Below are positions 6,449-63,399 of a stretch of DNA of 64,000 bases, one piece after another (within the stretch, counting starts at the first letter, position 1; every line of letters starts with the position of its first letter). Source of the stretch: Ischnura elegans. Its lineage: Eukaryota > Arthropoda > Insecta > Odonata > Coenagrionidae. Under the pieces are notes generated by a model that searched no databases, was not told where the DNA came from, and worked only from the letters and a program-made list of their open reading frames with translations. The stretch is from assembly GCF_921293095.1 (NCBI RefSeq), contig NC_060258.1, positions 5,332,001 to 5,396,000 on the forward strand, given 5' to 3'. The position numbers and the translations under genes are program-made.

Positions 6449-6656
6449 TATATAATACCCTGCGAGCCACCTCTAGGGTGTTTGGCAGGGGGTGATCAAT
6501 CACAAGCATGCAGCATGCAATTATAATCCAACAAGCACACCACACGGTCCAAAAAACGTCCCGTATAATAACAAACTATACTACTATATGCTGTTAGAAA
6601 TAATAATTGAATTAAGAAACATGCATTAAGTTTCACAAAGGTTAGTTGGCTACATT
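6449..6656 (-). mobile_element. LINE family A 3' UTR fragment, inverted against the next copy
   Basis: Minus-strand tail and 3' UTR up to the word GGCTACATTACA, where the sequence switches to plus-strand family A coding sequence. The junction fuses two copies head to head. Confidence 0.8.
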
Positions 6657-8908
6657 ACATTTCCCCGAGTTTCAAGAATCAGTATTAAAGTTAAATGTAG
6701 AGAATACTTGGAAAGCTTTTCTTTCGCTCGTAACTTCGGGAATAAATAGCTACATCCCTAGTAAAATAGTAAAAGAAGGCAGCGAACCGAGATGGTACGA
6801 CGCGGAAGTGAGAAAATCATTGAGGCGACAGAGAGCGTGTCATGCTAAAATGAAAAAAGTCAGCACGGATTTATCCGCTAATGAACGCGAGCTAATAATT
6901 AAAAAATATAGGATGACTAAAGCCGCCACGAAGGAAGCGTTCAGGAATGCGTTCACGAATTTTAAAAGAAAAACACTAGTAGAGCAGTTACAGGATAACC
7001 CAAAAGCATTTTGGTCATATGTTAGGGAAGTTCAAGGTAAACGATCTACCGTATGTTCGCTGAGAAACGACAATGGAGATGTGTTGACAAGCAGTTACGA
7101 TAAAGCCAATTTATTAAATTCCTACTTTAAGAGCGTGTTCACGGAGCCTTCCGAAAACTCACCCGAGACCGATGACAATCCCTGTATTCATAAGATGCCA
7201 GCTATTGACATTAGTACGCTCGGAATAGAAAATATATTGAAATCGCTTAGTCCAAATAAATCACCTGGTCCAGACGAAATCCCTTCTCGCGTATATAAAG
7301 AACTAGCCTCAGAACTTGCCCCCTACTTGCAGTTAATATTCAGTAAATCCATCAAGCAACACGAAGTACCTAATGACTGGAAAATCGCTAATGTAACGCC
7401 TATATTTAAAAGTGGAGACAAGGAACAGCCATCTAATTACAGGCCGATATCTTTAACGTCCATCTCTTGCAAAGTCCTTGAACACATCGTAGTCAGCTCG
7501 GTAATGAAACACCTAGACGCGCAAAACTTATTAATGGGAAATCAACATGGATTCAGGAAAAGCAGATCGTGCGAAACTCAGTTAGCGCTTTTCGCCCACG
7601 ATATTTTAGTCTCCGGGGAAGACAACATTCCAGTAGACGCGATTTTTCTTGATTTCAAAAAGGCATTTGATAAAGTACCCCACGGAAAGTTAATATTAAA
7701 ACTGAAATCTTATGGTCTAGACGAAGATGTCATTTCCTGGATTAGAAAATTTTTGAGCGACCGCGTCCAAAGAGTAGTATTAGACGGTGCAGTCTCCAAT
7801 GAGGTTAGAGTGACTTCTGGCGTTCCTCAGGGTAGTGTCATTGGCCCACTCCTATTCCTTCTTTATATAAACGACATTGGCGAAGTAGTGCAGAGTAAGT
7901 TACGATTATTTGCAGACGACGCTGTAGTTTACAGAGAAATTCGTTCCAGCAAAGATATAGATGAACTAACGAATGACCTTGCTGCTATCCAAGCTTGGTG
8001 CGATGCTTGGCAGTTAGAATTAAATTTGGAAAAATGCGTCGTAATGAATTTCTGGAAGAAGAATAACTCCCTACAGCGTAACTATGTCATTCGGGGCGCG
8101 CAGTTAAAGGCAGTTGAATCTGTGAAATATCTAGGGGTTAGACTCAATAATGATCTATCGTGGAATAAACATATTCGAGAAATAACCGGTCAAGCTAATC
8201 GTAAAATGGGTTTTGTTAAAAGAATATTAGGAAAGTGCGACGACAAAGTGAGAGAAATTAGCTACTTTTCCCTCGTTAGACCACATTTGGAATACGCTGC
8301 CAGTGTTTGGGACCCTCATGAAAAAGGCTTAATAACAGAGTTAGAACGCGTCCAAAGAAGAGCTGCCAGGTATGTGAAAGGTCGTTACGATAGTCTTGTT
8401 AGTGTAACTGACCTCTTACATAAACTCGGATGGGAATCTCTGTCGGACCATAGATTGAAAAATAGACTAAACCTTTTAGATAAATTCAAGAGCAGTGTCT
8501 TTTCTGACGAAGTTAACCATATCTTGCGGACGCCAACGCACTACGGAAAATCAGATCATATAAATAAAATAAGAGAGATAGATTGCAGAACAGACAGATT
8601 CCGAATGTCATTTTTTCCACGATCAATAAGAGATTATAACGGCAGCAATAGAACGCGTAAATAGATTGCATGACTTGTAGTGTAGCCTACTAACCTATGT
8701 AAAACTTACTGCATGTTTCTGAATTTCTATTCTATATTCTATTTCTAACAGCATATAGTAGTATAGTTTGTTATTATACGGGACGTTTCTTGGACGGTGT
8801 GGTGTGCATGTGGGAGTCCAAATGCATGCTGCATGCTGGTGATTGATCACCCCCTGCCAAACACCCTAGAGGTGGCTCGCAGGGTAATTTGTAGATGTAG
8901 ATAGATGT
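6657..8908 (+). mobile_element. LINE family A, long 5'-truncated copy
   Basis: It contains the RT half of ORF2, the full 3' UTR and a TAGATG tail ending near 8908. The endonuclease half is absent, so the copy cannot be autonomous. Confidence 0.9.
6658..8664 (+). CDS. Non-LTR retrotransposon ORF2 fragment: reverse transcriptase (family A)
   Basis: An open frame encodes the reverse transcriptase of a CR1/jockey-like LINE, which copies element RNA into DNA at a nicked target. Seen in order: linker with EPRWYDAEVRKSLRRQRA, RT entry motif [45 protein letters not shown], the catalytic FADD (near 7910-7920), and a thumb/C-terminal part with LVRPHLEYAASVWDPHE and RRAARYVKGRYD. The usual AP endonuclease N-terminus is missing through 5' truncation, and the frame runs into unrelated sequence at the 6656 junction with no ATG there. 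The equivalent frame of the other long copy (15894-17789) is nearly identical. The frame has no stops, so this is a young insertion. The assignment to an RT is secure; the exact clade (CR1, L2 or jockey) is inferred. Confidence 0.9.
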   Translation, partial: HFPEFQESVLKLNVENTWKAFLSLVTSGINSYIPSKIVKEGSEPRWYDAEVRKSLRRQRACHAKMKKVSTDLSANERELIIKKYRMTKAATKEAFRNAFTNFKRKTLVEQLQDNPKAFWSYVREVQGKRSTVCSLRNDNGDVLTSSYDKANLLNSYFKSVFTEPSENSPETDDNPCIHKMPAIDISTLGIENILKSLSPNKSPGPDEIPSRVYKELASELAPYLQLIFSKSIKQHEVPNDWKIANVTPIFKSGDKEQPSNYRPISLTSISCKVLEHIVVSSVMKHLDAQNLLMGNQHGFRKSRSCETQLALFAHDILVSGEDNIPVDAIFLDFKKAFDKVPHGKLILKLKSYGLDEDVISWIRKFLSDRVQRVVLDGAVSNEVRVTSGVPQGSVIGPLLFLLYINDIGEVVQSKLRLFADDAVVYREIRSSKDIDELTNDLAAIQAWCDAWQLELNLEKCVVMNFWKKNNSLQRNYVIRGAQLKAVESVKYLGVRLNNDLSWNKHIREITGQANRKMGFVKRILGKCDDKVREISYFSLVRPHLEYAASVWDPHEKGLITELERVQRRAARYVKGRYDSLVSVTDLLHKLGWESLSDHRLKNRLNLLDKFKSSVFSDEVNHILRTPTHYGKSDHINKIREIDCRTDRFRMSFFPRSIRDYNGSNRTRK

Positions 8909-15702: not shown

Positions 15703-15765
15703 GATTGATCACCCCCTGCCAAACACCCTAGAGGTGGCTCGCATGGTATTATGTAGGTGTAGATG
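15703..15765 (+). mobile_element. Very short LINE 3' tail insertion
   Basis: Only the final ~60 bases of the LINE A type 3' end (TGATTGATCACCCC to GTAGGTGTAGATG). The same remnant is at 32125-32180 in block Y copy 3, so it predates that duplication. Confidence 0.65.
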
Positions 15766-15893
15766 TATTAATCATACTTGAATCTGTCTACTTACAGCAT
15801 TTCGAATATTCCAAAAGCTTTTTTCACGTTCTACGAAATCAGTGCATATCAGTTCTGTCACACTATACACACACTGTTCGCTGTCTGTACACA

Positions 15894-17789
15894 GGCAGCG
15901 AACCGAGATGGTACGACGCGGAAGTGAGAAGATCATTGAGGCGACAGAGAGCGTTTCATGCAAAAATGAAAAAAGTCAGCACGGATTTATCCGCTAATGA
16001 ACGCGAGCTAATAATTAAAAAATATAGGATGACTAAAGCCGCCACGAAGGAAGCCTTCAGGAATGCGTTCACGAATTTTAAAAGAAAAACGCTAGTAGAG
16101 CAGTTACAGGATAACCCAAAAGCGTTTTGGTCATATGTCAGGGAAGTTCAAGGTAAACGATCTACCGTATGTTCGCAGAGAAACGACAATGGAGATGTGT
16201 TGAGAAGCAGTTACGATAAAACCAATTTATTAAATTCCTACTTTAAGAGCGTGTTCACGGAGCCTTCCGAAAACTCACCCGAGACCGATGACAATCACTG
16301 TATACATAAGATGCCAGCTATTGACATTAGTACGCTCGGAATAGAAAATATATTGAAATCGCTTAGTCCAAATAAATCACCCGGTCCAGACGAAATCCCT
16401 TCTCGCGTATATAAAGAACTAGCCTCAGAAATTGCCCATTACTTGCAGTTAATATTCAGTAAATCCATCAAGCAACACCAAGTACCTAATGACTGGAAAA
16501 TCGCTAATGTAACGCCAATATTTAAAAGTGGAGACAAGGAACAACCTTCTAATTACAGGCCGATATCTTTAACGTCCATCTCTTGCAAAGTCCTTGAACA
16601 CATCGTAGTCAGCACGGTAATGAAACACCTAGACGCGCAAAACTTATTAATGGGAACTCAACATGGATTCAGGAAAAACAGATCGTGCGAAACTCAGTTA
16701 GCGCTTTTCGCCCACGATATTTTAGTCTCCGGGGAAGACAACATTCCAGTAGACGCGATTTTTCTTGATTTCAAAAAGGCATTTGATAAAGTACCCCACA
16801 GAAAGTTAATAATAAAACTGAAATCTTATGGTCTAGACGAAGATGTCATTTCCTGGATTAGAGCATTTTTGAGCGACCGCGTCCAAAGAGTAGTATTAGA
16901 CGGTGCAGTCTCCAATGAGGTTAGAGTCACTTCTGGCGTTCCTCAGGGTAGTGTCATTGGCCCACTCCTATTCCTTCTTTATATAAACGACATTGGCGAA
17001 GTAGTGCAGAGCAAGTTACGATTATTTGCAGACGACGCTGTAGTTTACACAGAAATCCGTTCCAGCAAAGATATAGATGAACTAACGAATGACCTTGCTG
17101 CTATCCAAGCTTGGTGCGATGCTTGGCAGTTAGAATTAAATTTGGAAAAATGCGTCGTAATGAATTTTTGGAAGAAGAATAACTCCCTACAGCGTAACTT
17201 TATAATTCGGGGCACCCAGTTAAAGGCAGTTGAATCCGTGAAATATCTAGGGGTTAGACTCAATAATGATCTATCGTGGAATAAACATATTCGAGAAATA
17301 TCCGGTCAAGCTAATCGTAAAATGGGTTTTGTTAAAAGAATATTAGGAAAGTGCGACGACAAAGTGAGAGAAATTAGCTACTTTTCCCTCGTTAGGCCAC
17401 ATCTGCAATACGCAGCCAGTGTTTGGGACCCTCATGAAAAAGGCTTAATAACAGAGTTAGAACGCGTGCAAAGAAGAGCTGCCAGGTATGTGAAAGGTCG
17501 CTACGATAGTCTTGTTAGTGTAACTGACCTCTTAGATAAACTCGGATGGGAATCTCTGTCGGACCGTAGATTGAAAAATAGACTAAACCTTTTAGATAAA
17601 TTCAAGAGCAGTGTCTTTTCTGACGAAGTTAACCATATCTTGCGGACGCCAACGTACTACGGAAGATCAGATCATATAAATAAAATAAGAGAGATAGATT
17701 GCAGAACAGACAGATTCCGAATGTCATTTTTTCCACGATCGATAAGAGATTATAACGGCAGCAATAGAACTCGTAAATGGATTGCATGA
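15894..17789 (+). CDS. Non-LTR retrotransposon ORF2 fragment: reverse transcriptase (family A)
   Basis: Same protein as at 6658-8664, but about 45 residues shorter at the N-terminus. It keeps [45 protein letters not shown] and the catalytic FADD (near 17028-17038). The first residues come from the truncation point, and there is no initiation ATG at the start. The normal family A stop TAG after RTRK is changed to TGG, so the frame runs three codons further (WIA) to TGA. Apart from that it is fully open and differs from the other long copy by scattered substitutions such as HRKLIIKL for HGKLILKL, consistent with separate recent insertions. It lacks the endonuclease domain and cannot move by itself. 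Confidence 0.9.
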   Translation, partial: GSEPRWYDAEVRRSLRRQRAFHAKMKKVSTDLSANERELIIKKYRMTKAATKEAFRNAFTNFKRKTLVEQLQDNPKAFWSYVREVQGKRSTVCSQRNDNGDVLRSSYDKTNLLNSYFKSVFTEPSENSPETDDNHCIHKMPAIDISTLGIENILKSLSPNKSPGPDEIPSRVYKELASEIAHYLQLIFSKSIKQHQVPNDWKIANVTPIFKSGDKEQPSNYRPISLTSISCKVLEHIVVSTVMKHLDAQNLLMGTQHGFRKNRSCETQLALFAHDILVSGEDNIPVDAIFLDFKKAFDKVPHRKLIIKLKSYGLDEDVISWIRAFLSDRVQRVVLDGAVSNEVRVTSGVPQGSVIGPLLFLLYINDIGEVVQSKLRLFADDAVVYTEIRSSKDIDELTNDLAAIQAWCDAWQLELNLEKCVVMNFWKKNNSLQRNFIIRGTQLKAVESVKYLGVRLNNDLSWNKHIREISGQANRKMGFVKRILGKCDDKVREISYFSLVRPHLQYAASVWDPHEKGLITELERVQRRAARYVKGRYDSLVSVTDLLDKLGWESLSDRRLKNRLNLLDKFKSSVFSDEVNHILRTPTYYGRSDHINKIREIDCRTDRFRMSFFPRSIRDYNGSNRTRKWIA

Positions 17790-20464: not shown

Positions 20465-23410
20465 CTAGCGAGCGTTCCCATTAATCCTTTCAATTGAGAC
20501 AACGTTGCTATCCTTAATAGTACGAGGGAAGAATGACATTTTAAATCTCTCTGTTTTGAAGTCTATTTCTTTTATTTTTTTCTCATGATCGCGTCTACTA
20601 TAGTACGATGGTAAACGAAGGATATGCTTCACGTCGTCTGAGAAAATATTATCTTCGAGTTTCCTAAGTAAGTTAAGCCTATACTTCGATCTACGCTCCT
20701 GTAAAGATTCCCATCCTAACTCATTTAACATACTTGAAACGCTGCACTTTTTGTCGTAACAACTCATCACAAATCTGGCCGCCCTGCGCTGTACTCGATT
20801 AATTTCACCTATCAGTCCTACCTCGTAAGGGTCCCACACGCTAGCAGCATATTCCAAGTGAGGCCTCACTAGAGTCAGGTAGCTCATTTCTTTCACCTTT
20901 TTTGGGCATTTACCGAGAATTCTTTTTACAAATCCAAGTTTACGGTTAGCTTTCCCGCATACTTCACGTATGTGCTTACCCCACGAAAGATCCCGGGTAA
21001 TGGTGACCCCCAAGTATTTAACGAATTCGGTATTTGGTAGTGGAATCCCGTTAGCGGTGTAGGTCTTTCTTGAAGATATATCCTTTTCCCAAAAATTCAT
21101 CACCATACTCTTTTCAAGATTTAATTCTAACTCCCAAGTACTGCACCAGTCATTTACGGCAACGAGGTCCTTTTGTAATGCTAATCTATCGCTAAGGTCG
21201 TAAATTTCACGGTATACCACTACATCATCTGCGAAGAGGCGGATTTTGCTCGTGACCACGGTGGTTATATCATTAATGTAAAGAAGGAACAAAAGAGGGC
21301 CGATAACACTTCCTTGGGGTACGCCTGAGGTAACTTGAATTGTATCCGAGCTAACTCCATCCAAAACAACTCTCTGTTCGCGATCCTTTAGGAAATCTTT
21401 GATCCAACCAATAACGTGTGTATCTATGCCGTATGCTTCCAACTTTTGAATCAGCTTTAAATGCGGAACCTTATCGAATGCTTTTCTGAAGTCTAAAAAT
21501 ATGGCGTCGACTTGAACATATCTGTCACCCGCGGATAAGATGTCGTGAACGAAGAGAGCAAGTTGAGTTTCACAAGACCTCCCTTTTCTAAACCCGTGCT
21601 GCTCTTTTGCTAACAGATTTTGGCTATCAAGATGAGCCATTATCGAACTGAAAATAATATGTTCCAATATTTTGCAAGAAATGGAAGTAAGTGAAATTGG
21701 ACGGTAGTTACTAGGCTTTTCCCTATCCCCACCTTTAAATATAGGCGTGACGTTCGCTGTTTTCCAATCTTTAGGGACTGTGTGTTCTGCTAGAGATTTT
21801 TCGAACACTATCTTCAAGTAAGGCGCTATCTCTGACGCTGATTCCTTATACACTCGAGCTGGAATGAGATCAGTGCCTGTCGATTTCTTTGGATCAATAG
21901 AGCTGAGTTGTTTTTCTAAACCACTGTTTGAAATACAGATAGACGGCATCTGCTCTTGGTAGAGTCGAGGTAGAGGTGTTGATATATTGGTCGTGAAATT
22001 AGAGAAGATACTATGGAAAAAGTTATTTAAGAGATTAGCTTTATCTCGATTGTTCGTCACTCTTTCGCCACGTTCATTAATGAGTGAAGAGACTGTAGCG
22101 CAATTTCCCTGTACCTCCCTCACATATGACCAGAAAGCCTTAGAGTTGTCATCTAAATATTCGCCCAATATTTTTGTTTTGAATTCACTCAACGCCTCCC
22201 TAAGCGTTTTTTTCGTCTCTTTTTTCAATTTTTTATAATCTTCACGCATTTCTTGTATTTTCTCACAGGTAAGTCCCGCATGTATCTTTTTTATTTTAGC
22301 GTGAATTGCTCTCTGTCGCTTAAGAGCTTTACGGACTTTAGCATTGTACCATCTCGGTTCAGTATTAAAACGTTTTAACTTACTGGGAATCGTTTTATCC
22401 ACGGCTTTCTGCATAATACTAATGAAATTCTTCCATGCTTCGTTTACCCCAAGATTGAGAGTGGCGTCTTTGAAAACAGTGAATGAGTTCGTCAAGTACT
22501 GCTTTAACCCTTCAAAATTCGCTTTATGGTATAAATAGACCCTTCTTCTTGACACAGGTTTTCTATCGGAGAGGATACGAAACTTTCCATGCACTGCCTT
22601 GTGGTCACTTATACCAGCCACAGCCTCAGTTCTGATAACGCACTCTGGAATATTCGTTGCTAAGAGGTCTAGTATGTTGTTACCCCTGGTTGGTGTATCT
22701 ACTAGCTGAGTCAAGGAATTGGAATAGAATGAGTAAAGCAAAGTTTCGCACAGGTCCTTGTCTTTCCCTCCATTTTTAAAACAGTATTTTTCCCAATCGA
22801 TTGATGGAACATTAAAATCGCCGCCAATTATGACACTACTACGATTTTTCTGAGAAGTAAAACGTCTTATCTGGTTATCTAACTCTAAAACTGAATCTAT
22901 GCTTGAATCTGGTGGTCTATAATATGCGCATATAAAGTATCTCTTAGCTGAGCATTCGATTGAGCACCAAACACTTTCCAATTCACTATCTCCAAAATTC
23001 TCGGCTCTGCTTTTGATCTCATCCTTGACGGCAATGAATACTCCTCCTCCTGTTCTCGTTTTACGGTCCTTTCTGTATATGTAATATGATTTCGGGAAGA
23101 TCTCTCGGTCGTGTATTTCATCCGATAGCCAACTTTCAGTTCCTATGATTACATCAGCTTCTGTATTTAGAATTAAATGGTGGAAATCAGCAACTTTTTT
23201 CTTAATACTACGGCAATTTACAACTACGATCGATAAAGCTTCTTTTATACACGGTTTCGTGGACTTTCCTGATAATCTAAGTTTCTCATTGCATGCTATA
23301 TTTAATTTTTGTGATGCTCTATCATTATTTTCACTAGGGCTATTTTGACGTTTTGAACGCTTTATTGCTGTTTGGACGGAACCTTTTACCCCACGATTTA
23401 CCATACCCAT
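20465..23410 (-). CDS. CR1-like LINE ORF2: AP endonuclease plus reverse transcriptase
   Basis: An intact 981-residue protein from the first ATG (23410). The frame is open a few codons further up, to a TAG at 23453-23455, with a GTG at 23437. The N-terminal endonuclease of the exonuclease-endonuclease-phosphatase fold shows VVVNCRSIKKK (about residue 65), the catalytic TESWL, YYRPPDS, IIGGDFNVPSIDWE (about 200) and the SDH motif (about 270); it nicks the target. The reverse transcriptase follows with [45 protein letters not shown] and FADD (about residue 727), then a thumb and the C-terminal LVRPHLEYAASVWDPYE. All catalytic residues I can check are present. ORF1 ends 26 bases upstream in another frame. 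It is about 60% like family A in shared parts by eye, so it is a sister family. The protein looks functional, but this copy lacks the element's 5' end. Confidence 0.93.
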   Translation of the reverse strand: MGMVNRGVKGSVQTAIKRSKRQNSPSENNDRASQKLNIACNEKLRLSGKSTKPCIKEALSIVVVNCRSIKKKVADFHHLILNTEADVIIGTESWLSDEIHDREIFPKSYYIYRKDRKTRTGGGVFIAVKDEIKSRAENFGDSELESVWCSIECSAKRYFICAYYRPPDSSIDSVLELDNQIRRFTSQKNRSSVIIGGDFNVPSIDWEKYCFKNGGKDKDLCETLLYSFYSNSLTQLVDTPTRGNNILDLLATNIPECVIRTEAVAGISDHKAVHGKFRILSDRKPVSRRRVYLYHKANFEGLKQYLTNSFTVFKDATLNLGVNEAWKNFISIMQKAVDKTIPSKLKRFNTEPRWYNAKVRKALKRQRAIHAKIKKIHAGLTCEKIQEMREDYKKLKKETKKTLREALSEFKTKILGEYLDDNSKAFWSYVREVQGNCATVSSLINERGERVTNNRDKANLLNNFFHSIFSNFTTNISTPLPRLYQEQMPSICISNSGLEKQLSSIDPKKSTGTDLIPARVYKESASEIAPYLKIVFEKSLAEHTVPKDWKTANVTPIFKGGDREKPSNYRPISLTSISCKILEHIIFSSIMAHLDSQNLLAKEQHGFRKGRSCETQLALFVHDILSAGDRYVQVDAIFLDFRKAFDKVPHLKLIQKLEAYGIDTHVIGWIKDFLKDREQRVVLDGVSSDTIQVTSGVPQGSVIGPLLFLLYINDITTVVTSKIRLFADDVVVYREIYDLSDRLALQKDLVAVNDWCSTWELELNLEKSMVMNFWEKDISSRKTYTANGIPLPNTEFVKYLGVTITRDLSWGKHIREVCGKANRKLGFVKRILGKCPKKVKEMSYLTLVRPHLEYAASVWDPYEVGLIGEINRVQRRAARFVMSCYDKKCSVSSMLNELGWESLQERRSKYRLNLLRKLEDNIFSDDVKHILRLPSYYSRRDHEKKIKEIDFKTERFKMSFFPRTIKDSNVVSIERINGNAR

Positions 23411-23436
23411 ATCTACCCTACACTCTGCCCTACTCA

Positions 23437-23700
23437 CTAACTTAAAAAAGGCCTACAATGCTCGAAGATTCTACTCGCTACACACCTCGCTGACTCGGCC
23501 GTGTAATGAACTCCCGAACGATCCAGAGTGTTCCGACACGATCGGATTACCGGCCGCAGATCAACGAAGGAGGCTCCGATATCCTTGCAGAACTGACGCA
23601 GCCTCTGATTTATGCCTTCCACTCGGCTCCAAATCAGGGGTCCACGATCGATCCTCGGGACAAGACTACAGATCGAAAGCTCCATGCCGACCCCAATGGT
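23437..23700 (-). CDS. LINE ORF1 C-terminus, SGNH/esterase-like
   Basis: An open frame of 87 residues, 5'-truncated by the element break, ending at TAG just before ORF2. The words ICSLVPRIDRG, GINQRLRQFCKDIGASFVD and LDRSGVHYT have the order seen in the last blocks of SGNH (GDSL) hydrolases that form part of ORF1 in CR1-type elements. In those the block near the end usually carries an Asp two residues before Gly-x-His pairs; here the equivalent position looks like Ser, so activity is doubtful. The first ATG is at 23685, but the frame is open to the truncation point. An ORF1 esterase supports CR1-group membership. Confidence 0.7.
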   Translation of the reverse strand, partial: TIGVGMELSICSLVPRIDRGPLIWSRVEGINQRLRQFCKDIGASFVDLRPVIRSCRNTLDRSGVHYTAESARCVASRIFEHCRPFLS

Positions 23701-49345: not shown

Positions 49346-49364
49346 TCCCTTCGGAAACGTTCTA

Positions 49365-49780
49365 AAGAGGCTCACCGGAGCCCTGCCCTATTTGTGGAAG
49401 GCAATACCAAACACGGATGGTCCGCCACATCCAAGGTGTTGTAAAACACTGAATGGAAACCGTGGAGAAATGCTGCCGGGCCATCACTTTCCTGTGTGCA
49501 AAAGGTATCTTTAGATACCCGGAGCACTTCATACTAAATATTTTTGGAGCGCAGGGGAAGAACTTCCGGAAAAAAACACGGAAGGGAAACCATGGAGAAA
49601 TTCTGCTGGGTCATCACTTTCCTGTGTGTAAAAGGTATCTTTAGATACCTGGAGCACTTCATACTGAACCTTTTCGGAGAGCAGTGGAATAGCTCCTGGA
49701 AAAAAAACAGGGAAGGGAAACCGTGGAGGAATGCTGCCGGGCCATCACTTCCTCATGTGCTAAAGGTATATATAGGTGAA
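49365..49780 (+). pseudogene. Broken C2H2/conserved-module exon with three tandem ~132-bp repeats
   Basis: It starts with a damaged zinc-finger segment (GSPEPCPICG-like codons) that loses frame, then three successive units beginning near 49453, 49584 and 49718. Each encodes part of the module TVEKCCRAITFLCAKGIFRY and PEHFILNIFG. This is the same module found once per exon at 58069, 58609 and 59103. The multiplication inside one exon and the frame changes between units show loss of coding function. It is the left end of a paralogous block running to about 50910. Confidence 0.65.
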
Positions 49781-50226
49781 GATACGTCTCTTTCGGGTAA
49801 TACACCGCGTGGGTCCATTGTTCTCGGACAACAGTTTCGCCGGCATTACAGTCGGCTTCTTCAGGTCAGTGAAGTAATGATGCAGTGAATTGGCCGCCTT
49901 ATACATCTGTCCGTAGAGGCTAGGTCATCTGTGATTGGCTGTCGCTGCCTTGTCTTTTTCCACGCAAAACTCGTTTCCAGGCATGCGGAAGGGGATAGCC
50001 GTCTTCCCTATTGAAATTATCTTGAGTCTTGCTTATTTTGATGGCTTTCCGTATCAGGCATGGAAAATATCTCCTTTCTTTGGAAATAAGCTTCGCTTCG
50101 TCAAAATTGATGTTATGGGTAGACGTTATAGAGCGAAACTGTCATCCAAGAACAATGGACCCACGCGGTGTATTACCCGAAAGAGACGTATCTTCATACT
50201 CATCGACCCGCGGAAGCCTGCATAAG
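49778..50226. mobile_element. 449-bp element with ~62-bp inverted repeats and a 13-bp target duplication
   Basis: Left arm 49778-49840 starts GAAGATACGTCTCTTTCGGG; its reverse complement ends near 50195, followed by about 30 unpaired bases. GGTATATATAGGT occurs at 49765-49777 and 50227-50239, and the empty-site word is seen in sister repeats. The left half (reverse strand) includes CTGAAGAAGCCG...CGGCGAAAC, which recalls the decayed hammerhead region of Penelope-like elements. DNA-transposon or Penelope-derived origin is open. Confidence 0.6.
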
Positions 50227-50369
50227 GGTATATATAGGTACCCAGAGCATTTCATACTAAGTGAGTGGCAAGTTGAGACATAATATTTTTATATATAGTT
50301 TACTTCGTCAATTTTTGCTGTGGGAAATTGTTAATCCTATCCCCTTTGACTTGATTGTTTCCTTTTTAG

Positions 50370-50413
50370 AGACATCAGACGAGGTGGGAGACTGATCATC
50401 TTCACTTCGTCAG
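50370..50413 (+). pseudogene. Damaged copy of the 51-bp exon type
   Basis: Acceptor TTTCCTTTTTAG and donor CAG|GTGGGT enclose 44 bases matching the 51-bp exon at 59603, with seven bases missing at the start and an in-frame TGA in the original frame. Confidence 0.5.
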
Positions 50414-50634
50414 GTGGGTCAAGGGCTTTAGCTACAGAAAACAGGTTGTGCGATAGAGAGTTCATATTTTACTCCAATAAATCGTTTTTAATTCGCACAA
50501 ACAATGGTTGCAATTGTCTTGTTTTTTTCTTGTTTTTTTTTTTTTTTGGTTATGTGCCGGGTTTGAACTTCATTTTTAATATCATAGAAACAGCCGTTGC
50601 AAATTTCTTACTTCATGCCTCCTTCATATCTTAG

Positions 50635-50679
50635 GACACAGTCGAGGTTACAAAGGTGGAGGCCCATGGAAAAGAATCT
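50635..50679 (+). CDS. 45-bp micro-exon (copy 1)
   Basis: Flanked by ATATCTTAG and GTGAGTTA. Phase 0, encoding DTVEVTKVEAHGKES. The paralogue at 59995-60039 has identical size and splice words. Whether it is still used is unknown, because neighbouring exons in this block are broken. Confidence 0.45.
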
Positions 50680-51060
50680 GTGAGTTAATACAATATTTAT
50701 ACTTAATACTTAGACTAGAAAAATGCCTATTGCTTATCATGGAAGTCATCCGAATTCAACCTTTGACTTTCCCGAACCAATATTAACAAATATGTGACCT
50801 TGGGTCTCTTTATCCTCTGTTAGGGAAAAATGGATGATATGATCTTGTTAAACACAGGTGGAACCACATCAGAGGATTGGACATGGAGTCTCCTCGAGAT
50901 TACGGATATTTATCAATGGCCTCCCAAGCCATGAAGCATGTTGAAAAATAGTAAGTATAGGAATAACTGTTTCAAATTGGGACATTAAATGTTCAAGTGC
51001 TGATGTAAGTTTCTTACATCGATTTTTCGTAATTCCAGGGAGGGACTTCATAATATTTCC

Positions 51061-52983: not shown

Positions 52984-54605
52984 ATTAAGGGGGTGCTGTC
53001 ACAAAAATATGAAGCTGTCCACAGCATTGTCCGCCAGGCAGTGCAATATGTGAAGAGTGTTTCTTTCACTATGGATGCAGCAACTGTTATGAACTTCATC
53101 GTATTGACTGGACTTTGCATTGGTAAGCCATGATCTACCAACAAGTTTGCGGTGAATTGTTGTGATAAATAAATGTTGAGTCGTTGAGATAAATGAATTT
53201 TTACAAATTGAGGCTATTATAATAGTAACTAGAACTATATTCATTGGATCCATATTAACAAGATGTAATCATCTCTTACTCTTCTAAGCAAAATTTCTGT
53301 ACTATGAAATTATACATTTCTATTGAAACTGTGGCACAATTTCCTTTTCATCACAGATGAACAGAGCTTCACTATGGTATCTACGATTTTCGGGATAAAG
53401 CAATTTACTCCACACCACACCGCATACTATATGTGCTGTGACCTGAAGGATACGATGTGCGGATGGAGCATTGACGAAAAAAATTGTTAGTTTAACCACT
53501 GACACTGCGTATAATATTGTTGGGGCTACAAGGCTACTAATTCCCTATCGGGAGGTACATGTGCCTGGCACACAACATAAACCTGGTCGTGCCTAAAGCT
53601 TTGGGAGCTAAGGAAGAAGTGTTGAAGTGATTGAGAAAATTAAAAGAATTGTGGCTTACTTTAATCAGAGTAATGTGGCCCAAGACTACTTAAGAGAGGA
53701 GCAGAATAAGGTGGGAAGGAGCGTTTACTTATATTTAAAGCAGGAGGTTCTTACCAAGTGGAACGAAACATTTTACTGTATTGAAAGATTCACATTGCTG
53801 TTACCAATGGTGGGTAAAATACTCCTCTCCCCATCCCACAGGAATGCTCCTCCTATGCCAACGGCAGAAGAGTTGGAGATTATGGGAGATGTTGTAAAGA
53901 TTTTAGCACCTTTTTAGGCCTCCACTTAACACATATCAGGATATAAGTATATCAGTGGTACCTTGGTGCTTCTGATGTGGAATTCTATATGCATTGCACT
54001 CTCAAAAATTAATGTAAATGATTCTGTTGTGGGTGAGCTCCATCAGAAATTGAGGGAAGGAGTTGAGTTGAGATTGGACCCCCTTGAGGAAAACTCTCTT
54101 TTAGCTGCAGCCACAATCCTACACCCCCATTAAAAAAATACATTCCAAATAACCAATTAATGCTGTAAAAGCAGTGAATAATTCAAGGATATTAAGGCCG
54201 CACTGAGGAGTCAGTGGTCCCTTTGTCCCCCCATAGTTACCAACCAGCAAAATACAGATAACCTATTGATCAGTACAGGATACCATGGCAGCAGAAAGTT
54301 TACATGCGATTCCTGATCCCCAAGATGGGAGTTTACTTACAGAATTTAAATTATACCTGATCCACCCTTACTGAGTAGATCATTGAATCCAATACAATTC
54401 TTGGAGGATAGGAGAAATGCCTTCCCTGGAATTTATGAGGTCGCAATGAAGTACTTGGCTATAGTCGGTGCTACAGTTGCATCTGAGAGGGTGGTTCCTC
54501 TCCTGAACTTTTTAAGTAGTGACCACGGAAGCCCACTTAACACCTGATCACCTAAATCGGCTAATTTTTCTGGGGTCCATAGATGATGATTTTTGGGATA
54601 TGTAA
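52984..54605 (+). pseudogene. ZBED-type hAT transposase, frameshifted
   Basis: Segments in order: SIVRQAVQYVKSVSFTMDAA with TVMNFIVLTGLCIG (catalytic-domain start), a possible intron or gap 53124-53355, a segment ending CGWSIDEKN, IVSLTTDTAYNIVGATRLL, then the open frame 53627-53917 (IEKIKRIVAYFNQSNVAQDY, KWNETFYCIERFTLLLP), and a C-terminal dimerisation region with YEVAMKYLAIVGATVASERV and NRLIFLGSIDDDFWDM followed by TAA. The order matches hAT transposases of the ZBED group (RNase H fold plus hATC). At least four frameshifts and stops make it a pseudogene. No N-terminal BED finger and no element ends were found. Confidence 0.85.
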
Positions 54606-56642: not shown

Positions 56643-57119
56643 TTATGTTGGGTCGTTCTGATTGGCGGAGAAAGAGTACGCTTTTCCCGCCACTTTCAAA
56701 ATCGGGTTCCATGCCTTACTTAAGTTGAAACCCTCGTCTCTGTTGAAGTTTTTCTTGGAGAGTCGTATTTCAATTGCCTCCTTGGTGAGGCGATCCCAGT
56801 AGCCGCTGGAGTGGCAGAGCATTTTGGTGTTTTCCCAGCGAATCGCGTGGTCAAGATTGATGGCGTGCTCCGCAACCGCCGATTTCGATGGTTGGCACAG
56901 CCGGAGATGACGCTTATGCTCTTTGATTCGGGTCTCGATCGTTCTTCCCCTTTCACCGATATACTCCTCACCACACTCGCATGGTATGCTGTAAACACCA
57001 GGCAATTTCAGTCCTGCAGGGTCTTTGGCACGGACTAAGACTTGTCTTAGTTTTTTGTGAGGCAGATGCACTGTCCGTATGTTGTGTTTATGAAGAATGC
57101 GCAAAATCTTGCCGGATAC
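56643..57119 (-). pseudogene. Penelope-like protein C-terminus: GIY-YIG endonuclease
   Basis: An open minus-strand frame from VSGKILRILHKHNI (no ATG; TAG just upstream at the truncation) to the stop at 56643. A connector LRQVLVRAKDPAGL is followed by the GIY-YIG domain: PGVYSIPCECGEEYIG, RTIETRIKEHKRHLRL with the conserved Arg, and the Glu in SAVAEHAINLDHAIRW, then the usual EAIEIRL and NFNRDEGFNLSKAW. The Cys pair CEC within the GVY-YIG loop is typical of Penelope elements. Domain residues are intact, but the RT domain is absent, so the copy is a dead fragment. Confidence 0.85.
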
Positions 57120-57989: not shown

Positions 57990-58062
57990 AGGCAGGCGTA
58001 GGTTTTTGCTTCTCCTTTGCAAACATTCGTGCCTGTTTAAATAAATATTCTTATATTTTTAG

Positions 58063-58427
58063 AGATGCGGACATGAATATCGATCGTAAAAGAAGGATGG
58101 TATCTAAGACCACCAAGGGTAGAGGCTCACCGAAGCCCTGCCCTATTTGTGGAAAATGTACCAACACAGATGGTCCGCCAAATCCAACATGTTCACCCTT
58201 CCGTGTGTGAAAAACCATTGAGAAGTGCTCCCGGGCAATAACTTAGCTGGTTGCGAAAGGTTTATTCCGATACCTGGAGCACTTCATATTAAACCTTTTC
58301 GGGGCACAGTGGAGGAACTCCCCTGAAGAAATACATGAGAGCCTTGCATGCCTCGGGTTAGAGGTAATCCCTTTGGGGTTATCCCTCGAGGACGAATGCG
58401 GGGTGGATGACGACAAATGAAGAGGAG
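58063..58427 (+). pseudogene. C2H2/conserved-module exon, unit Z1 (frameshifted)
   Basis: It is preceded by the acceptor ATATTTTTAG and ends in GAG|GTAAGT. It reads SPKPCPICGK, then loses the finger frame through a deletion, continues as a recognisable module at DNA level, and regains frame at RESLACLGLEVIP-like codons before a TGA near 58418. It is the same exon as Z2 and Z3 but damaged. Confidence 0.6.
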
Positions 58428-58608
58428 GTAAGTGACAAGTCTACAGGTTATTTACTATGTTTGAGATCTTTCTCTACGAACACATATTTTCTTTCCAATA
58501 AGCTTATTTTGTTATAAATTGTTAATTCCGCGGAGGCATGCTGTAGTTTTTGCTTCTCCTTTGCAAACGTTCGTGTCTATTTAAATAATTATTTTCTTCT
58601 ATTTTTAG

Positions 58609-58961
58609 ATACATGGAAATGAATAAAAAATAAATTGGAAGATGGTGTCCATAAAAAAGGGCAGGGGGAAACACCTAAGCCCTGCCCTATATGTGGCAAA
58701 AGGTTTTGCACGCAATTGGTCCGCCACATCGCGAAAGTTCACCCTTCTGTGTACAAAAAATATGGAAGGGAAGTGATAGCCAAATGCTCCCGGGGAGTAA
58801 CGGGCCTGGTTGCAAAAGGCATAACCAGGTATCCGGACCCCTTCACATTGAATTTATTCGGTGAAACATGGAGGGACTCCTCAGAGGAAATGCGGGAGAG
58901 CCTCGCATGCCTCGGGGTTGAAGTAATCCCTAACAATTTTTGGTTATTAACTTTGTATTAA
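58609..58961 (+). CDS. C2H2 zinc finger plus conserved module exon, unit Z2
   Basis: The preceding acceptor is CTATTTTTAG. The exon's ATG frame (MEMNKK) stops, but a second frame is open from about 58635 for 108 residues: KPCPICGKRFCTQLVRHIAK followed by VH (Cys-x2-Cys-x10-His-x4-His), then the module KKYGREVIAKCSRGVTGLVA, RYPDPFTLNLFGETWRDS and EEMRESLACLGVEVIP. The finger is probably a nucleic-acid binding unit; the module is unknown to me. Because the start frame is shifted against the finger, Z2 works only as an internal exon or not at all. Upstream intron sequence (GTTTTTGCTTCTCCTTTGC) is repeated in Z1 and Z3. Confidence 0.55.
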
Positions 58962-59102
58962 TACCATTTCTGCGAACACACATTTTCTTTCAAATAGACA
59001 TAGTAAAATATATAATGTTATTTCCGGGTAGGCAGGCTGTAGTTTTTGCTTTTCCTTTGCAAACGTTCGTGTCTATTTAAATAAATATTCTTCTATTTTT
59101 AG

Positions 59103-59475
59103 AAATATGGAAATTAACAAAACCATCATGTGGAAGATGGTAACGAAAAAAAAGGGCAGTGGCCCGCCCAAGCCGTGCCCGATTTGTGGAAAGAGATTTA
59201 CTTCGCAATTATCCCGCCACATCGCAAAGGTTCACCCTGCCATATTTCAGAGATATGGCAGGGACGTGGTCGACAAGTGCTCCCGGGGTATCACCAGGCT
59301 GGTGGCAAGCGGCACTTATAGGTACCCGGAGCACTATGTGTTGAGATCTTTTGGGGCCCTGTGGAGGGACTCCCCACAAGAAATGAGGGAGAGCCTCGCA
59401 TGCCTCGGGGTGGAAGTAATCCCTTCGGGGATATCCCTCCCGGAGGCATGCGGGGTGGAGGAGGAGACGGATGTT
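59103..59475 (+). CDS. C2H2 zinc finger plus conserved module exon, unit Z3 (best copy)
   Basis: After the acceptor CTATTTTTAG an ATG (59107) opens a clean frame: MEINKTIMWKMVTKKKGSG, then finger KPCPICGKRFTSQLSRHIAK plus VH, then RYGRDVVDKCSRGITRLVAS, RYPEHYVLRSFGALWRDS, EMRESLACLGVEVIP and an acidic end EEETDVDG. At 59475 GGG|GTATGT is a fair donor in phase 0, matching the phase-0 51-bp exon at 59603. Without splicing the frame runs to TAA near 59531. A small nuclear or nucleic-acid binding protein is inferred from the finger alone. The module after the finger, about 75 residues, has conserved KCSRGIT, RYP and LACLGVEVIP in all units and is not a family I know. Expression is unproven. Confidence 0.6.
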
Positions 59476-59602
59476 GACGGGGTATGTAACGGGTCGTCCT
59501 CCATAGACATGATAATTTCCATATTTTCATAAATATACTTTGTCGTTTTCGGTAGTGGAAAATTGTTTACGCTATCCCCATTGACACTGTTTTCCTTTTT
59601 AG

Positions 59603-59662
59603 AATGCTGAGACATCAGAAGAGGTAGGAGAGTCGTATGCATCGCTTCCTCAGCCTCCATAA
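59603..59662 (+). CDS. 51-bp type exon N, possibly terminal
   Basis: After the acceptor TTTCCTTTTTAG it reads NAETSEEVGESYASLPQ in phase 0. It is the same 17-codon type as the exons at 60325, 60716 and 61104, but the donor is lost (CAG is followed by CC), and the frame ends at TAA (59660-59662). It could be the last exon of a short Z3 transcript. Confidence 0.45.
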   Translation, partial: NAETSEEVGESYASLPQPP

Positions 59663-59994
59663 TGTAACACCTCAGCTCTCCTCGAGGTGGAGACTGAAAA
59701 TCTCCCGCATGTGAGTCAATGAATTATTTACACTTTTTATTTGTGAATAGGACACTTCTCATATCCCATGAAGTTTTTTTACTTTATGCCCTGTAATTTT
59801 CCTTTTTCCTTTTCAGAACTCTGAAGGTACCAGTACAAAGGAGTTGGTGCGGCATGTATTGATAATAGAACTTCGATAAAAAATAGATATAGATGAGAGG
59901 GTATTTGAATATCGCCCGGTTTGCACTCCACCATTTTCAAATAATACAAACAGCCGTTGCAAACTTCTTACTTCATTCTTCATTCATACCTTAG

Positions 59995-60039
59995 GACAGA
60001 GTCAAGGTTCACCAGCAGGAGGCAGATGTCCAAGAATCT
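59995..60039 (+). CDS. 45-bp micro-exon (copy 2)
   Basis: Between ATACCTTAG and GTGAGTTA, phase 0, encoding DRVKVHQQEADVQES. Same length as 50635-50679. Introns on both sides are conserved between the two blocks (for example CAGCCGTTGCAAA). Confidence 0.45.
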
Positions 60040-60324
60040 GTGAGTTAATGCTATATTTATATTTGATACTTAGACTAGAAAAGTACCTATTGCACACCAT
60101 GTAAATCATCCGAAATCAACCTATAACTTTCCCGAATCAATATACGCAAATATCTGACTTTGGGATTCTTTATACTCTGTTAGTGAAACATGGATGACAT
60201 AATCCTCTTACTTACAACCAGGGATTGGAGTCTCAACTACCTCAGACGCCGTGGGGTAGGTAAAGGAAGAACTGTTTCAAGTTGTGACATTGAAAGTTAA
60301 AGTGCTAATTTTAGCTAATTTTAG

Positions 60325-60375
60325 GGCGCCGAGATATCGAGGAAGAAGGGATCCCCACCATCGCCATTGCCTCGG
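60325..60375 (+). CDS. 51-bp micro-exon B0
   Basis: Between GCTAATTTTAG and GTGAGTTA, phase 0, 17 codons: GAEISRKKGSPPSPLPR. It aligns with the other 51-bp exons at A-E-x-S and L-P-R. Confidence 0.45.
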
Positions 60376-60502
60376 GTGAGTTAATATACAGCAGAAAGGG
60401 AAGAGGAGAGTTGTGAACAAGTGCTTGGATTTTATTGAACTTCTTCATTTTTCATTTGAACAAACATAAGTTAAAAATGCCTTTTTTCTTTGTTTCTTTC
60501 AG

Positions 60503-60577
60503 GGGTAAGGATACGGATTCAGTTGGAATGGAGGAAACACCAGTTGTTTTGAATGAGGAGGTGGATGCCCTATTTAT
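60503..60577 (+). pseudogene. 75-bp micro-exon A1, out of phase
   Basis: The same size and flanks as A2 (acceptor TTTCTTTCAG, donor GTGAGTCAACC), but indels put it in another frame: in phase 0 it has TAA at the second codon. The DNA-level match to A2 (GAGGAAACACCAGTTGTTTT) is strong. Confidence 0.5.
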
Positions 60578-60715
60578 GTGAGTCAACCATTTGTTCTCAC
60601 TTGATAATAAGACTAGAGGGATACTTACTTTAGTCCATGCTAATCACCCAAATTCTACCTTTTCCTTATGTGGAAACATGGTTCATTCCCGTTAATTAAG
60701 TTTTCCCAATTTTAG

Positions 60716-60766
60716 GATGCTGATACATCTGTGGAGGACGGGTCTCCACAGTCAAAACTGTCGCAG
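60716..60766 (+). CDS. 51-bp micro-exon B1
   Basis: Between CCCAATTTTAG and GTGAAAG, phase 0, encoding DADTSVEDGSPQSKLSQ. Paired with A1 in a ~390-base unit repeated downstream. Confidence 0.5.
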
Positions 60767-60892
60767 GTGAAAGAGAACCTAGGTGAATAGCAGATTTAGA
60801 TAACAAAATTTTCATTTTGTTACTTATCCCACTTCTTCATTTGTAAAAACATTAGTGTAAAATGTCTCCTTTTTGTTTCTTTCATGTGTTAG

Positions 60893-60967
60893 GAAACAGA
60901 TTCAGTGCATTTGGAGGAAACACTAGTTGTTTTGAACGGGGAGATGGAGGTGCAATGCCCTATTTAT
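60893..60967 (+). CDS. 75-bp micro-exon A2
   Basis: Between CATGTGTTAG and GTGAGTCAACC, phase 0, 25 codons starting ETDSVHLEETLVVLNGEM. Open and in phase with B2. Confidence 0.5.
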
Positions 60968-61103
60968 GTGAGTCAACCATTTATTCCTACTTGATAATAA
61001 GACTAGAGGGATACTTATTTTAGTCCATGCTATTCAGCCAAATTCTACCTTTACCTTACTGGGAAACAATTTATCCCCGGCAATTTATTATTTACAATTT
61101 TAG

Positions 61104-61154
61104 GATGCTGAGACATCTGCGCTAGACAGGGCCGAGAAATCACAACTGCCACGG
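61104..61154 (+). CDS. 51-bp micro-exon B2
   Basis: Between ACAATTTTAG and GTGAATT, phase 0, encoding DAETSALDRAEKSQLPR. With A2 it is the second copy of the A-B exon pair. Confidence 0.5.
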
Positions 61155-61316
61155 GTGAATTCATAACTTCGGTGAATAGCAGATTAGGAAAGAAATTTTT
61201 TATTATGTTCCCAGGTTTTACACCGCTTCTTTGTTTTATCTTCGTGCATACATATGTTGATAATGTCTCTCATTATGCTTGTTTCATATTTTAGTGAATA
61301 TAGTGAATTGTAGTAG

Positions 61317-61391
61317 TATTCGGATATAGTGAAATTGGGGGAGACACCAGAGGTGATTATCCTGGATTTGGAGGCTCAGTTGAAGACCTCT
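61317..61391 (+). CDS. 75-bp micro-exon A3 (diverged)
   Basis: With GTAGTAG as acceptor and CT|GTGAGTCC as donor the length is again exactly 75 bases, phase 0, starting YSDIVKLGETPEVIILDLEA. It aligns with A2 at LxET and VxxL. The acceptor lacks a strong pyrimidine tract. Confidence 0.4.
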
Positions 61392-62512
61392 GTGAGTCCA
61401 TCAAACTTGTTGCCAATGGTGACACTTTTTTAACTTTCTCAAACCATTATTTACCATTCATTTTATCAATCACCACTCTTTATCATTCAATTAGCACGAA
61501 TTTAAGCGAAAAATAAAACCACTTTCATGGAGCTCTTTAAGTATTGGTATATGATCCAATTTATCATACTTTTCTCAGTTTAGGTGGTAAGTAAATGCTC
61601 GAAAAAAAAATCCAGTAAAAATGTATACTGGATGTTTACAACACAACAATTTTACATGTGTAAATATTTGTAATGTAATTCTTTTGAAGTTAAAACTTCT
61701 TATGTCACACTGAGAACTTTTGTAGGTGGGTATAAGGCGTGGACTTGTGACTCGATTTTTTTTTTATGCGTTCAATTTGAGTAGCTTATTAGTAGAGGGT
61801 GTTGACAATAGGTTGTGCCATAAAATTTGATGAGTGTTTACGACCATATATTGAAGAAATATAGAAAAGGAAACACTTGCAGAACAGTTTTGAAGTGAAA
61901 ACTTCTTATTTTGAACTGGCGCACTTTTTTCAGATTGGTAGAATAAACTGAACTTGTGTGACCTTCACCTCAAAATCGTCACCGCCTCGCTGTTAACAAA
62001 GGAGAGGGGATTAAAGAGTTTTGAATTTGCTCATTCGTCATGTATGAAAATATGTTCTGAAGCAGAAAGAATTGCAATGTTTAGTGTTGACAATACTTTG
62101 TCAATTTTGTTCATAGCAGTGGTTATAAAAAATACTTTCTTGAATTTCTGTTAGTAACTTGGCTTTTCCGAGTTTATATTCGTAATCCAGTTTGTTGCAT
62201 AGGCTTCTTGTACATTTTTTAACATCAGTCAATGTCATAAAGTTTTCAAATAAAAAGTTTTCACGTCCAACGGCAGTCCCACAACTGCCATGTTTTTTTC
62301 TAGAATTGCAGGTACTTGACTGTTGCAACTGGAATTTACATTTGTGTTGCTCGTTTACTTTTGTTTTTAAAGAAATGCAAAGTTAGTTTGTTGGCATAAT
62401 TTGAATAACATGTTGAGTTTTCTTCCATGACTTGGTGCACACAGTTCAAGGAAGTAGGGCCATCTACTCTTATAAGTTCAGTTGGTTCTAATTTTATTCA
62501 TTTCTTATCTAG
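61392..62512. other. No clear exon
   Basis: AT-rich, intron-like. The short frames here have no recognisable content. Confidence 0.4.
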
Positions 62513-62661
62513 TGCTCCGAGCTGTGTGGTCACAAGGAAAAGCAGAGGTGTTGTTTCACATTGAAGATGGTCGAATAGCTTTGAAGGATCCTGGTCAGCC
62601 TGATAGGATGGAGACCGTCAGAGATGTAGCTTCCTGTGTCTGCAGCCAGACCTGAAATATT
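62513..62661 (+). CDS. Possible terminal exon
   Basis: It follows the acceptor TTCTTATCTAG. In phase 0 it reads CSELCGHKEKQRCCFTLKMV plus E then TAG. In another phase it reads VLRAVWSQGKAEVLFHIEDG and on to a TGA at 62653-62655. TTG|GTAAGT at 62661 could be a donor, and AATAAA at 62692 a poly(A) signal. I cannot tell which reading is used, or whether it belongs to the upstream micro-exons. Confidence 0.3.
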
Positions 62662-62699
62662 GGTAAGTTTGTCTGTCATTTCACATGGACCAATAAAAT

Positions 62700-63399
62700 A
62701 TATTGTTTAGCCACTACCAGCCATGGGATGAACTTGGTAGTTTTGAATACTAACATTAAAAGGTTATTAATTGCTCTGTAAAAATTATCAGGCCACCATA
62801 AGATGTCTTTCTTCCTAATTAGGTGTTGAAAAAGTGGTATTTTTCCTAAATAAAACCAGGGGATCGATGGTTTTCAGTGATTATATCATAAAAACATGCC
62901 CAAAAATTGTGTCTGACTGTACACCTTCATGAAGCCTTCGTTATGGTCAACAGTACTTAAATTTTTGTTGATGTTTCATCCTAAAAGTGTTGTTGTTATA
63001 TATGCATATGACAGTGTCACTTTTTAACGTAATGTGTATGAAGTCAGTGGGACTGGAAAATTGGCACTTTAAATTGAGTTTCGTAATTTCAAACCTTTTT
63101 CGCAAATAATTACAGCAGACTTTCAGGACAGGAATGGGTCTTTTAATAGACATTCCAAGAGCGGGTAGCGGTACCACAAATGGTGGAAATACGAGCGAGA
63201 CGTTTCTTCTCAAATCCAAAGCTATCGGTGGAAATTAGTGGTGCGTAAAAAAATCAATTACTTGTGTGTTTGTGTTTCATTATCTTCAAACCCTTTCACT
63301 GCTATGAACGTATCTAGTATGTTGGCATGGCAGACTGCTGTGAACGTACTTTCTCTTCCTCCCTACCACGCACATTCGCCCAAGCAATCCAAAAGGTTG
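62700..63399. other. No recognisable gene
   Basis: AT-rich DNA. A minus-strand frame (62947-63219) has no known motif. Confidence 0.4.

Follow-up and report, generated by a model that had tools for sequence, protein, structure and literature searches.

A predicted, partly broken member of a family of short zinc-finger genes with very small exons on chromosome 13 of Ischnura elegans

Results

Our analysis of a 64,000-nucleotide (nt) stretch of the Ischnura elegans genome (C13:5332001-5396000; the window, i.e. the whole stretch analysed) indicates that one of its loci (Table 1) is a partly broken member of a family of short zinc-finger genes with very small exons, as predicted from the DNA. The genome searched comprised 110 contigs (1,722,721,009 bases), in which copies of the family are confined to five contigs and form arrays that share one orientation over long runs. 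The explanation that we consider probable is a new, chromosome-confined gene family that employs micro-exons, the copies of which exchange pieces, and which possibly has a recombinase ancestry.

The first exon of the family, here termed Z, encodes a single C2H2-type finger, with x10 spacing, fused to an unnamed ~75-residue module. In the paralogs the Z exons begin genes of their own: next come the AG/GT-bounded, phase-0 exons A, C and B (84, 36 and 45 nt), then exon D, the 94 nt of which leave the frame in phase 1, and finally a short terminal exon. Four of the 11 models built are open through 211 codons, with one of the four reaching a stop at 221, and nine short Z copies on contig C38 carry no stops. 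The Z domain is basic (isoelectric point, pI, 9.6) and the tail is acidic (pI 4.05). The two Cys and two His residues are kept in most of 11 aligned Z copies; the best Pfam C2H2 score is 19.7 bits, under the curated cut-off of 27. The Z exon, with its finger domain, is subject to purifying selection, the lowering of the ratio of nonsynonymous to synonymous substitutions (dN/dS) for closely related intact copies being only moderate (0.14-0.95 in four pairs with dS < 0.1).

The introns following the 45-nt and 75-nt exons are homologous, and the repeat unit is therefore an exon pair of ~390 bases. In an alignment of 15 rows (the window, 13 loci fetched for it, and locus L010), exon A3 is preceded by AG in 14 rows and followed by GT in all. 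The 12 B3 exons of full length include one with a stop, and in the remaining three rows B3 is 66 nt and in frame (L010), 74 nt (L052) or truncated (L058). A2 has 51 nt in five rows and 54 nt in four, the frame of B2 is lost in most rows, and B4 is unaligned in two rows and has a stop in one; the A2-B2-A3-B3-A4 chain is fully open in L053 and L054. Among eight distinct intact rows, A3 and B3 together give a ratio of nonsynonymous to synonymous differences per site (pN/pS) of 0.44 (0.22-0.94), with third positions carrying most changes, and the values for single micro-exons are not significant. The flanking intron, 366 bases in all, has 16 gap openings and the exons have one (0.36 versus 0.07 per 100 bases per row), with base divergence being slightly greater in the exons (0.108) than in the flanking intron (0.085). 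Because stop-free phase-0 frames bounded by AG and GT arise by chance in the window at 1.27 (51 nt) and 0.78 (75 nt) per kb, exon lengths alone are weak evidence; conservation among the paralogs is the real evidence.

Phase-0 exons of the window copy succeed one another on one strand. Within the 36-mer directly upstream of its Z exon lies a TATA-like run (CTATTTAAATAA or CTATATAAATAA), and a good, pyrimidine-rich splice acceptor comes after the 36-mer; the region before Z may be an intron end, as in the first-pass annotation, or a promoter. The window copy differs from the intact L015 copy at 22 of 800 bases over 58790-59590 and then at 24 of 50, and its tail belongs to an older lineage that also occurs, at ~95% identity, at C13:5.427 Mb, a locus with an open exon A. 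The break in identity near 59590 and the older tail together identify the window copy as a chimera. Going by its reading frame, the longest product that it could encode is Z with 19 further residues.

Table 1. Positions of the family features in the window
Feature	Positions	Strand	Remarks
Decayed upstream relative	49361-51045	+	~8 kb upstream of the window copy and more decayed
Locus segment	58063-58426	+	
Locus segment	58610-58938	+	
Conserved 36-mer	59049-59084	+	directly upstream of Z exon; 77 sites at <=3 mismatches, 0 for reversed-pattern control
Locus segment	59103-59481	+	
Exon A	59603-59710	+	108 nt in window lineage, 84 nt in most paralogs; in-frame TAA 59660-59662
Exon C	59818-59859	+	36 nt in paralogs; no donor GT in window copy
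Exon B	59995-60039	+	45 nt, phase 0; in 16/16 aligned units
Exon D remnant	60184-60255	+	94 nt in paralogs; deletion and TGA at start in window
Micro-exon A2	60325-60375	+	51 nt, open
Micro-exon B2	60503-60577	+	frame lost in window, TAA in phase 0; 75 nt and open in L053, L054
Micro-exon A3	60716-60766	+	51 nt, open in 15/15 rows
Micro-exon B3	60893-60967	+	75 nt; length kept in 12/15 rows
Micro-exon A4	61104-61154	+	51 nt in 8/14 rows, 50 nt in 6/14
Micro-exon B4	61317-61391	+	75 nt in 11/15 printed rows; donor GT gone in four of these

A first-pass annotation of this DNA had proposed a micro-exon gene with some broken units. Phase-0 exon chains are indeed kept in the paralogs, but the window copy itself is broken, by the stop at 59660, loss of the exon C donor, a deletion in exon D and B2 being out of frame. 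Of the four 51-nt exons proposed, those at 60325, 60716 and 61104 stand, whereas that at 59603 lacks a following GT, the paralogs and the ~95% identical sister tail showing a 108-nt exon instead. The 75-nt exons proposed at 60893 and 61317 are likewise borne out, but not that at 60503, given its phase-0 TAA. Two family exons, at 59818 and 60184, had been missed and the decayed upstream relative overlooked. The proposed end of the locus at 62661 is not upheld: 62441-62700 matched nothing in 20 loci (L009-L028) or in the rest of the window, and these comparisons lend no support to an exon near 62515-62661.

A long relative of the family is predicted on C38, with AG/GT-bounded exons of 1602, 153, 954 and 711 nt, all in phase 0, giving 1140 residues. 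Its 1602-nt exon contains the ATG, a Lys/Glu-rich region and the Z domain; the 153-nt exon is acidic, and a 357-codon frame with the third exon is open in three of 12 C38 copies. Tyrosine recombinases have a core of R-H-R-Y residues; by eye, the spliced L018 exons contain R, K, R, H and Y in order, with Y nine residues past H and T at the expected box-II H. By this motif order and spacing the C-terminal part resembles a tyrosine recombinase, a reading that no database search confirms. Common descent of the long and short genes is suggested by the linking acidic exon, which occupies the place taken in the short genes by the acidic micro-exons. Matches to the recombinase exons lie on the same five contigs as the Z copies in 102 of 104 cases, with two weak ones on C10. 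The DUF3504 profile (PF12012), with all 12 candidates scored, gave two matches, both on C12.

The ~700-kb C38 contig (L017, L018, L019) is mostly a tandem array of near-identical units (L018/L019, 99.7%), in each of which the plus strand carries a long Z-recombinase gene and the minus strand a short Z gene. On C10, L041 (C10:94446501-94449500) comprises short degenerate repeats of recombinase motifs, the sole family trace found off chromosome 13.

C13, C10 and C12 are, on firm grounds, chromosomes 13, 10 and 12 of assembly ioIscEleg1.1, described as 1,723 Mb over 110 scaffolds (PMC9975421). C13 (21,320,372 bases) is far below the others in size (C10, 108,619,349; C12, 94,743,817). Four unlocalised scaffolds are named for chromosome 13 (PMC10781644); these are probably C14, C15, C16 and C17 (18.8, 11.9, 11.1 and 10.3 Mb), with C38 (698 kb) left unassigned. 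I. elegans is reported to have a small m-chromosome, which Hetaerina lacks and which damselflies are said to lose commonly (PMC10838124), and the family-bearing scaffolds are likely those of this m-chromosome. Chromosome 13 has a repeat excess and reduced recombination along its length, and the colour-morph locus, with three zinc-finger gene models inside, lies on its unlocalised scaffold 2 (Willink et al., PMC10781644). The position of C15 in the assembly file makes it a candidate for that scaffold, its 11.9 Mb comparing with ~15 Mb in the paper's own assembly; genome searches for Z, the recombinase exons and the 36-mer gave no family match on C15. Stretches of C13 and C17 (C13:5.42-5.47 Mb versus C17:4.00-4.04 Mb, inverted; C13:3.94 versus C17:8.77 Mb) are 98.6-99.4% identical and represent either haplotypes that were not collapsed or recent duplications within chromosome 13.

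The decayed upstream relative retains the order finger, ~2.5 tandem copies of a 130-base module (49443-49769), insert, A-like exon and B-like exon (50635-50679), one module copy being split by a repeat-like insert (~49770-50226) with long inverted ends. In the other direction, decayed recombinase exons at C13:5412167-5413363 (L042), 16-17 kb beyond the window end, adjoin a further Z copy. Elsewhere in the window, long frames read as LINE (long interspersed nuclear element) reverse transcriptases at 6646-8664 and 15732-17789 (+) and 20465-23452 (-) (672, 685 and 995 codons between stops). An open frame at 56643-57119 (-) gives a sub-threshold GIY-YIG match (E 0.0036, 18 versus 22.6 bits) and is perhaps a Penelope-like remnant, and a fragment at 53000-54600 reads like a hAT-type transposase, with a 43-residue piece having no Pfam match.

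Discussion

Several observations weigh against a chromosome-confined family of functional micro-exon genes. Stops occur in 59 of 150 listed copies (hand count), copy numbers are inflated by the near-identical C13/C17 stretches, and the joining of exons from Z through A, C, B and D is a prediction from DNA. The tail is without constraint in the L026/L012 pair (dS 0.084, dN 0.081), as is B4 (pN/pS 0.90), and dN/dS values are distorted by gene conversion. Profile and fold searches give no match naming the Z module, and Pfam, PHROGs, PDB and protein searches report no recombinase for the C-terminal part of the C38 gene.

Some of these observations would fit mostly dead loci, i.e. arrays of pseudogenes that unequal exchange has spread on a repeat-rich chromosome of low recombination, the constraint being a leftover from the past. 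Broken units are numerous, and chromosome 13 is reported as repeat-rich with reduced recombination (PMC10781644). This explanation, which we consider unlikely, is weakened by the intact chains in four of the 11 models, the nine stop-free C38 copies, the third-position bias of A3 and B3 with few exon gaps, and the moderately low dN/dS. Slightly less likely still is a Crypton-like tyrosine-recombinase transposon, with Z as its DNA-binding part and the short genes as non-autonomous or captured derivatives that are still moving: recombinase-like exons do follow Z on C38 and, decayed, adjoin Z copies 15-18 kb past the window end, but copies keep to five contigs in arrays of one orientation over long runs, the only recombinase matches elsewhere are two weak ones in a short degenerate stretch on C10, and the DUF3504 profile matches C12 only. 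The first-pass annotation had itself raised a known transposon module with copies everywhere; what we observed is five contigs and no naming profile match.

Beyond the favoured reading of a new chromosome-confined family with exchanging copies, a bolder proposal, to which we give little credence, is that a small, often dispensable chromosome carries a private DNA-binding family. Exchange would even out introns and tails and selection would separate several old core lineages, as if each core had its own target, e.g. the chromosome's repeats or regulatory sites, and the ancestor may have been a domesticated recombinase gene. If so, the family could aid the upkeep or transmission of the chromosome, or regulate genes on the chromosome of the female colour-morph locus. 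The private genes of the m-chromosome are a natural open question, for which a family that has intact members and was found on no scaffolds but its likely ones provides a concrete handle. The family is also a clear case of exchange between copies evening the flanks while an old, constrained protein core stays diverse, and a candidate for domestication of a recombinase-like gene. The same combination of features was not found in the literature searched, clustered finger genes and domesticated recombinases each being already known.

The KRAB-ZNF and ZAD-ZNF genes are C2H2 zinc-finger gene clusters, with which the Z family shares lineage-specific tandem clustering and exchange between copies, whereas it differs in its one x10 finger under the Pfam cut-off, its unnamed ~75-residue module and its phase-0 micro-exons. 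Classical C2H2 proteins have Cys-x2-Cys-x12-His spacing and several adjacent fingers, and Z has neither, nor a score reaching the Pfam cut-off. Schistosome micro-exon genes and aphid BICYCLE genes have chains of short symmetric exons with fast turnover; by description the Z family resembles them, having short-exon chains in multiples of three (84, 36 and 45 nt; 51 and 75 nt, phase 0), but it begins with a finger-domain exon on which purifying selection acts. Like the Crypton/DUF3504 genes, as described in part of PMC3212892, the long C38 gene joins a putative tyrosine-recombinase domain to a DNA-binding part; unlike them, the Z family has no profile match, is not genome-wide (the recombinase exons being near-confined to the five contigs rather than dispersed as mobile copies) and includes short models without recombinase exons. 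The zinc-finger models of the colour-morph locus, compared by description only, are alike in lying on the same chromosome and encoding zinc-finger proteins, their family being unstated in the excerpt of PMC10781644 consulted, and differ in place, the Z family having no matches on the candidate morph scaffold.
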